Assembly: GCF_007280415.1 (NCBI RefSeq)
Contig: NZ_VKKU01000001.1
Location: forward strand, 186,001 to 250,000
Direction of reading: 5' to 3'
DNA length: 64,000 nucleotides
DNA from: Sphingorhabdus contaminans
Lineage (GTDB): Bacteria; Pseudomonadota; Alphaproteobacteria; Sphingomonadales; Sphingomonadaceae
Shown here: in pieces, positions 12,298 to 14,986 of the stretch
Numbering within the stretch: the first letter of the stretch is position 1
Layout of the letters: each line of letters opens with the position of its first letter
Notes under the pieces: model-generated
Seen by the model: the letters and a program-made list of their open reading frames with translations, nothing else
Databases searched by the model: none
What the model was told of the DNA's origin: nothing
Position numbers and translations under genes: made by a program

Positions 12298-12336
12298 CTG
12301 GAATAAAATCGTCGAAGAAGCGCTGATCTGACTCCG

Positions 12337-12903
12337 TCATGGCGTTGACTTGGGTATCAACGCTACGGTGACGAAAACTTGAATTCCCCGACCTTCATCC
12401 CGGGTCATCTGTGGGCCGTTGACGATGGTGATCATATGTCCTGATTTGATTACCAGTTCGTCCTTCATATAACCATTCGCCGTGCCTGATCGCCGCGTGT
12501 CATAGATCCATGATGATGTCGCGCGCAGGCGGTCGACGAATTCGAGCCGTGCATTGAGTGCAGCATCGGTGTCCGACACCACCACCCGGCAAGCCGTTGA
12601 ATCGACGGCGGTTACAACGAAAACAGTACTCCCTCCGTCACCGATCTTCGCAAAGAGCGGATTTTCAGGAAACAAAGGAGCCGAATTATCCCTTACGTCT
12701 TGTGGAACGCCTTCGACCATGCGCGCGCCGAGCTCTGCCAACTGATCGCTATGGTCAGCCGAGAGAATTCCGTCACGCAAAATATGTTTTGCGCATAGTT
12801 TGAACCCGAGCTCGATGCGGCCACTAACTTCCGCAACTCGTTCTTTAAAGGGGAGAGGTGCCTGAACAGCTAGGGCTGGCGCCAGAAAAAAGCTGGCCAG
12901 CAT
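12337..12903 (-). CDS. Secreted hypothetical protein at the end of the atp operon
   Basis: The protein has 188 residues with a short signal peptide (MLASFFLAPALAVQA). The mature part has two cysteines (LCAKH and TACRV), a beta-rich pattern and no motif I recognise. It starts only 5 bp after the atpC stop codon on the same strand, so it is translationally linked to the ATP synthase genes and probably shares their transcript. Nothing in the sequence ties it to ATP synthase itself. It may simply be a hitch-hiking gene. Confidence 0.7.
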   Translation of the reverse strand: MLASFFLAPALAVQAPLPFKERVAEVSGRIELGFKLCAKHILRDGILSADHSDQLAELGARMVEGVPQDVRDNSAPLFPENPLFAKIGDGGSTVFVVTAVDSTACRVVVSDTDAALNARLEFVDRLRATSSWIYDTRRSGTANGYMKDELVIKSGHMITIVNGPQMTRDEGRGIQVFVTVALIPKSTP

Positions 12904-12908
12904 CAGAT

Positions 12909-13175
12909 CTATGCGGCCTCAACCACCTGTTCGGCGAGGACGGTCAGGCCTTTTTCGTTCACTTCAGCAAAGCCGCCTGCAACGGTGAGCTTTTCAGGGG
13001 TCGCCCCTTGCGAAGCATAGATTTCTAGGGCAGCATCGCTGCGCAACGTGCTCATCATGGGGCTGTGGCCTTCAAGCACGCCAAAATCGCCTTCTGTGCC
13101 GGGGACCACGACCATATAGACGTCGTCCGAGCGATAAAGCTTCTCTGGGGTTACGAGTTCAAATTTGAGTGCCAT
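12909..13175 (-). CDS. atpC: F1 ATP synthase subunit epsilon (short form)
   Basis: This is the central-stalk inhibitory subunit of F1. The 88 residues cover the N-terminal beta-sandwich domain, with [29 protein letters not shown] and [18 protein letters not shown], all standard. The C-terminal helical hairpin that inhibits ATPase activity in E. coli (about 50 further residues) is missing, as is common in Alphaproteobacteria, where a separate zeta inhibitor can take over that role. It is separated from atpD by 179 bp that hold a large inverted repeat, unlike the tight spacing of the other atp genes. Confidence 0.95.
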
Positions 13176-13188
13176 CTGCTTTTCCCAA

Positions 13189-13354
13189 TCTTCCCCTCTC
13201 CATCGGGAGAGGATTATGAAGACTTGGCAGCTCGCTGCCTAGTCGTAGCTGGGTGAGGGGCTTTCCCTATACCGGGGCAGTACCCCTCATCCAACTTTGC
13301 CAAAGCTGCTAGGCAGCCAAGGCTTTCTGTCCTTATCCCAGCGGGAAGAGGTGT
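13189..13354. repeat. Long imperfect inverted repeat in the atpD-atpC intergenic region
   Basis: Two related elements of about 75 bases face each other. The left one (about 13189-13260) runs from CTTCCCCTCTCC through GGCAGCTCGCTGCC to AGCTGGGTGAGGGG. The right one (about 13283-13354), read on the minus strand, runs from CCTCTTCCCGCTGGGA through GGCTGCCTAGCAGC to AGTTGGATGAGGGG. Each also has internal hairpins: CCTCTCC/GGAGAGG at 13195-13212 and GGCAGC/GCTGCC at 13225-13238. The pair would fold into one large cruciform or RNA stem within the atp message. It resembles the palindromic extragenic elements ending in GGGTGAGGGG seen in many proteobacteria. No further copy was noticed in the window. 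Confidence 0.75.

Positions 13355-14986
<1,632 letters not shown>

Follow-up and report, generated by a model that had tools for sequence, protein, structure and literature searches.

The 179 nucleotides between atpD and atpC of Sphingorhabdus contaminans are occupied by a single copy of a non-coding palindromic repeat of REPIN-like type that is dispersed through the genome, with two arms that stand head to head and carry two hairpins each. The best explanation for its presence, to which we give an even chance, is that a single insertion of such a repeat docked behind atpD, and that a hairpin behind the genes for multi-copy subunits is tolerated or favoured through protection of the mRNA.

The atpHAGDC cluster lies on the minus strand of the window, the whole 64 000-nucleotide stretch of DNA analysed here. 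The separation of 179 nt given in the first-pass annotation is exact, positions 13176–13354 falling between the two genes, and its figure of 9–27 bp for the other genes is also right (H–A 9, A–G 12 and G–D 27 nt at the F1 junctions). The features of the region are listed below, with bit scores from R1, a covariance model of 66 positions built from 37 single arms.

13355–14959, minus strand: atpD (beta subunit, 534 aa), the cistron upstream of the gap, from ORF call and Pfam.
13283–13351, minus strand: right arm, about 69 nt, inverted with respect to the left arm; R1 match of 54.1 bits (the arm is itself among the sequences of R1).
13261–13282, no strand: spacer of 22 nt between the facing GAGGGG ends.
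13195–13260, plus strand: left arm, 66 nt; R1 match of 69.7 bits (likewise among the sequences of R1).
13221–13244, plus strand: inner hairpin of the left arm, 91% complementary.
13195–13212, plus strand: outer hairpin of the left arm, CCTCTCC/GGAGAGG, perfectly paired.
13176–13194, no strand: stretch between the element and atpC, similar in the congeners G031, G034 and G026.
12909–13175, minus strand: atpC (epsilon subunit, 88 aa, beta-sandwich domain only), the cistron downstream of the gap, from ORF call and Pfam.

Two facing, related elements had been described in the gap, and these are the inverted arms of 66 and about 69 nt. The left arm terminates in GGGTGAGGGG and the right arm in GGATGAGGGG; of the common end that had been claimed, TGAGGGG closes both arms and GGGTGAGGGG is confined to one. 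Small perfect hairpins had also been attributed to each arm. The outer hairpin of the left arm is indeed perfect (the inner is 91% complementary), and that of the right arm, which adjoins the atpD stop, is damaged here and by eye perfect in G031, G034 and G026. The gap RNA, read from the minus strand as in the mRNA, has a predicted folding energy of −80.7 kcal/mol (z −4.70), with none of 200 shuffles equally stable. The single long stem that had been envisaged is not recovered: in the predicted fold a central stem of 6 + 7 pairs around one mismatch, with a small cap, is flanked by separate hairpins. As the longest perfect stem in the gap is 7, the window is not scored as hairpin-positive in the survey described below. 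In the inner arm helix 94.3% of cells are paired across 37 sequences and 88 cells have changed on both sides (shuffles average 26 and slid partners give at most 17), counts in which the cells are not independent events since the alignment mixes left arms, right arms and subfamilies.

In Pfam the product of atpC matches the N-terminal beta-sandwich domain PF02823 alone, and the C-terminal helices seem to be absent from the 88-aa sequence. These helices inhibit the ATPase, and the description of epsilon as regulatory is doubtful because they are seemingly missing. In congeners the open frames of AtpC run from 86 to 123 aa, and the closest named relatives of the protein are found in a Sphingopyxis-labelled MAG (99%) and then in Sphingorhabdus species (up to 89%). 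Immediately downstream of atpC, at 12337–12903 on the minus strand, lies an ORF of 188 aa, secreted-looking and unmatched in Pfam, which bears by eye a faint resemblance to an ORF inserted in G019.

The element belongs to a repeat family. With BLASTN the genome itself (G000; 3.29 Mb in 2 contigs) yields no further near-identical copy, the best other match being 83% over 35 nt; a strict reading of this as the lack of any second genomic copy was dropped once subfamily copies and R1 arms had been found. Among 61 genomes, this one included, a match at E ≤ 0.01 occurs in 17. Several of the matches span 140–170 nt at unrelated loci, and near full-length copies are present elsewhere in congeners. Aligned copies have the arm plan in common, and it is shared by a second subfamily within the genome. 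At E ≤ 0.01 R1 detects at least 40 arms in the genome (150 of 731 first-look candidates scored), 11 of which were used to build the model and 29 of which are independent of it; in the window it finds the two gap arms only. Across the genus R1 arms occur in 23 of 45 genomes at E ≤ 0.001, with 1 to 52 in each. The 40 listed arms of the genome are arranged as 11 head-to-head doublets (22 arms), 6 tail-to-tail pairs (12 arms) and 6 single arms. By crude ORF calling 18 of the 21 repeat loci examined lie between ORFs (8 co-directional, 7 convergent and 3 divergent) and 3 lie inside an ORF. The earlier suggestion that a mobile palindromic repeat had settled in a tolerated spot gains support from the 38 further arms in the genome and from the copies at other loci of congeners. 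Both the family and the structure of its arms are thus direct observations, and we infer that the element is mobile in trans.

The tail-to-tail pairs come two at a time, share their spacers and enclose about 0.4–2.6 kb, an arrangement that possibly reflects local copying of the repeat. Three such loci are found in the genome.

G000:C1:172840-173627: tail-to-tail locus L218.
G000:C1:278234-281117: tail-to-tail locus L219.
G000:C1:516767-517426: tail-to-tail locus L220.

The bracketing of DNA at these loci had suggested mobilisation of cargo. This was dropped because the 278–281 kb block, when checked, proved to be collinear with G031 at about 90% and to contain ordinary chromosomal genes.

The family is reminiscent of the REPIN, a doublet of REP sequences that forms a hairpin (Bertels and Rainey, 2011; PMC3116915). 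Compared with the account in that paper, it likewise consists of dispersed, extragenic, inverted palindromic doublets with a variable spacer and compensatory changes, together with some singlets and clusters. The gap element contains two inverted REP-like units and has many dispersed extragenic relatives (at least 40 arms; 18 of 21 loci between ORFs). Unlike the REPIN, the arms are about 66 nt long with two hairpins each. Models of the RAYT transposase, PF01797 and NF047646, give no match in the genome, a search that a very divergent transposase could escape; both are positive in the E. coli control. Matches to PF01797 are found in 4 of 45 genomes of the genus, and to NF047646 in 7 of the 37 genomes examined, a single one of which belongs to the genus. 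The element is therefore called REPIN-like and is not filed as a REPIN. A target-site duplication like that of a MITE derived from a DDE transposon is not seen when empty and filled atp sites are compared by eye, and the arms are inverted.

Within the genus 40 of 45 genomes yielded AtpC, and 39 allowed measurement of the D–C gap. The gap is 6 nt in 17 of these, so no hairpin is needed at the junction. It holds the element of the window in four (this genome, G031, G034 and G026) and other palindromic doublets in two; it is 43–49 nt long, mostly with one hairpin, in 11; and in four it contains an insert of 182–714 nt with one sense ORF (58–223 aa). In the remaining genome the ATG of atpC follows immediately on the atpD stop. 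The four atp copies of the element have a matching atpC-side flank which, by eye, is not seen beside copies at other loci, and for this reason they probably stem from a single old insertion in an ancestor shared by at least four genomes of the Sphingorhabdus group. By eye, a different, longer hairpin that is still partly paired has taken the place of the left inner one in G034 and G026. The spacer turns over fast, since G019, the sister of G031 by AtpA/G/D, carries an ORF insert in place of the element.

The ORF inserts between atpD and atpC (58–223 aa) are found at L053 / L138 (G019), L061 (G016), L077 (G036) and L079 (G066), and by eye a small ORF occupies the same position in L184. One of the inserted ORFs is signal-peptide-like and one is small and contains Cys. 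Between atpA and atpG of several congeners another palindrome, of the ATGCTGAACTTGTTTCAGCAT type, is present (L306, L311, L313, L314 and L323–L326).

Hairpins at atp junctions were then counted across the Sphingomonadaceae, a hairpin being a perfect stem of at least 8 in the 80 nt that follow the stop, with one genome per genus. The F1 sample consists of 100 atp operons (79 at one per genus and 21 from the genus itself) together with the window; the 79 are what remains of the 86 genomes G069–G154 after removal of G084 and G093 (place not listed), G088, G100 and G112 (contig end) and G082 and G097 (no AtpC match). The F0 sample consists of 64 loci, or 57 once seven duplicates from the same genus are removed. 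It excludes the six highest-ranked matches, L327–L332, which were set aside before counting; five of these match weakly and have the look of second ATPases, and L332 is a genuine I-B-E-F'-F operon with a best stem of 6 after atpE, the inclusion of which would make the atpE count 25/58.

In the F1 operon hairpins follow atpH in 1/79 genera, atpA in 14/80, atpG in 2/80, atpD in 27/80 and atpC, at the operon end, in 22/80. In the F0 operon they follow atpI in 0/57, atpB in 0/57, atpE in 25/57, atpF' in 0/57 and atpF, at the operon end, in 16/57. The expectation from shuffled sequences is 0.3–1.2 hairpins per junction set, and Fisher tests give 1.6e-7 for D against G, 5.7e-4 for A against H and 2e-9 for E against B. 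The hairpin after atpE had been predicted from the multi-copy idea before the F0 sequences were gathered, and was then borne out. These hairpins are GC-rich, commonly GGCCGG..CCGGCC, and unlike the dispersed repeats (for example L357, G000:C1:336191-339379). The 22 operons of the genus itself show hairpins after H in 0, A in 9, G in 0, D in 6 and C in 1. Recurrence at the same sites is thus observed directly. The eight junctions are few; the three high-to-low ones are all positive and the five others are not, an outcome expected 1 time in 56 under random labelling.

The order of the junctions is unchanged under other windows and stem lengths. A first count of stems of at least 8 inside the gap gave 28/101 for A–G, 36/101 for D–C, 0/100 for H–A and 3 of 71 measured for G–D; counted per genus over the whole gap the figures are D–C 28/80, A–G 17/80, H–A 0/79 and G–D 3 (51/80 measurable), and in F0 the gaps with such stems are E–F' 29/64, I–B 0/64, B–E 0/64 and F'–F 0/59. 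Widening the window to 120 nt takes in more coding sequence, and stems of 8 then appear after atpI in 7/57, atpH in 3/79 and atpG in 4/80. Two of the 27 atpD hairpins (L253 and L272) lie at least partly within coding sequence. Hairpins were at first taken to gather at the D–C junction alone, a view abandoned because A–G collects them as well.

On a quickly built tree of 100 genomes, in which many forks are unresolved, the hairpin state of D–C has changed at least 25 times and that of A–G 15 times, counts in which gains and losses are not told apart. Among the 100 operon loci (0.7 Mb), R1 arms at E < 1e-5 outside the genus lie in the D–C gap of L227, L257, L267, L286 and L289, the sole exception by gene coordinates being L239, where the arm lies outside that gap. 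Among 80 named loci they occur just 5' of atpC in Sphingobium (L180, L193, L203, L204, L206 and L212) and in the uncultured L179. The D–C junction is a docking place at which different palindromes have been gained and lost repeatedly, and the site weighs more than the individual copy of the repeat. In a class-wide set of 30 loci, reduced to 26 by removal of three without a usable atpE match and one of other gene order, hairpins follow atpE in 2/26 and atpB in 1/26; at the atpE junction, which was the one tested, the pattern is therefore not found to be general in the Alphaproteobacteria. It is a trait of the Sphingomonadaceae, or of repeat-rich lineages.

The strongest alternative is that a selfish palindromic repeat occupies a spot where it is no more than tolerated and nothing is selected for. 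An insertion that lowers the downstream subunit would do no harm behind atpD, epsilon being required in small amounts, and would be deleterious ahead of alpha, beta or c. Such a spot fits with the compact junctions of 6 nt in 17 of the 39 congeners, the ORF inserts that four carry at the same place and the mixed contexts of the 21 repeat loci in the genome. The hairpin nearest atpD, that of the right arm, is moreover damaged in this genome, which counts against a role for the hairpin. Against mere tolerance stand the c-to-b' hairpins, which are unlike the repeats and yet occupy the matching place in 25/57 genera, and the atpI–atpB gaps, which are roomy (median about 75 nt) and yet hold no perfect stem of 8 (0/57), so that space alone is not the explanation. 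The protective reading is given its even chance, and mere tolerance somewhat less than that, because 'favoured' and 'tolerated' are not separable.

It is unlikely that the element is an intrinsic terminator or attenuator which stops part of transcription before atpC. Its GC hairpins are strong, and hairpins are about as frequent after atpD as after atpC at the operon end (27/80 and 22/80). However, no terminator-like site is found in 12300–13500, and the gap element lacks a hairpin followed by a T-run. The hairpins start at a median of 9.5 nt after the stop of atpA and 9 nt after that of atpD, and T-tails (5 or more T of 8) follow 0/14 of them behind atpA and 0/27 behind atpD, a direct observation; at the operon ends T-tails follow 7/22 behind atpC and 7/16 behind atpF. 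The atpE hairpins differ from those of atpA and atpD in that 4/25 have a T-tail. Rho-dependent or pause effects may also occur at the element. A dedicated, signal-sensing cis-regulatory RNA in control of epsilon, to which the fold z of −4.7 and the covarying helices could point, is very improbable given that the same structure is scattered over unrelated loci, that Rfam gives no match at gathering score in the window and that epsilon seems to lack its C-terminal domain.

The mRNA-protection reading has precedents. Klug reportedly described in 1987 a deletion phenotype for the hairpin of the puf operon, and McCarthy is said to have described in 1990 post-transcriptional control of the E. coli atp operon. 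The latter would resemble the present case in its unequal expression within an atp operon after transcription, and we know of no mobile palindrome there. In the text of PMC5927463, from which the term 'ATP synthase' is absent, McCarthy 1990 on the E. coli atp operon is cited among reports of differential decay, and the general idea is therefore not new for atp operons. The same text describes how a hairpin between malE and malF of E. coli shields the upstream message (PMC5927463). The gap element likewise offers a stable, U-tract-free hairpin between two genes of an operon, after a cistron needed in excess; unlike malE–malF, it is known by position and structure alone. Of the 34 E. coli pairs with a stabilized upstream gene given there, 26 have their 3' end at a stable hairpin that lacks a U-tract, and the protective structures are mostly inside the downstream coding region, unlike the gap location here. 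In the puf operon of Rhodobacter, as described in PMC6238624, an intercistronic hairpin protects the upstream message; that case is similar in being an alphaproteobacterial operon with unequal subunit need, and differs in that the gap element belongs to a dispersed repeat family, its role being predicted from sequence. No paper on palindromes in the sphingomonad atp operon is among the matches listed, with coverage outside subscription journals.

Alpha and beta are present in three copies each in the synthase, and c in about ten. In the proposed mechanism RNase E-type cleavage would fall in the downstream cistron atpC, and 3'-to-5' exonucleases would trim back to the hairpin just past the atpD stop and be blocked there, so that the atpD message would outlive that of atpC. 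The hairpin would also separate translation of the following gene from the upstream cistron. With TAA and ATG 6 nt apart in the compact state, the two genes are likely to be translationally coupled, a link that the insert would disrupt. An excess of alpha, beta and c over gamma, epsilon and b' would thereby be tolerated or favoured. The hairpin positions across the family are compatible with differential expression within the atp operon, as in the earlier suggestion that the stem could set epsilon relative to beta, and their recurrence behind multi-copy synthase genes suggests that such repeats help to set protein ratios. Protection of the mRNA, and with it a benefit of the element, would be the function: the element may be a selfish palindrome that is kept, or tolerated, where an mRNA-protecting hairpin favours a multi-copy subunit.

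Ratios such as 3:3:1:1:1, with about ten c, from one operon are usually credited to translation rates. A wider proposal, which we advance tentatively and would not call probable, is that the stoichiometry in Sphingomonadaceae is tuned by mobile palindromes recurrently captured as 3'-end stabilizers behind alpha and beta, with another type of hairpin serving likewise behind c. If this is true, hairpins, some of them mobile in origin, that come and go at the high-to-low steps would amount to a natural experiment on mRNA decay as a means of tuning and a case of selfish repeats put to use, and the compact and filled states of sister species would make the idea directly testable.
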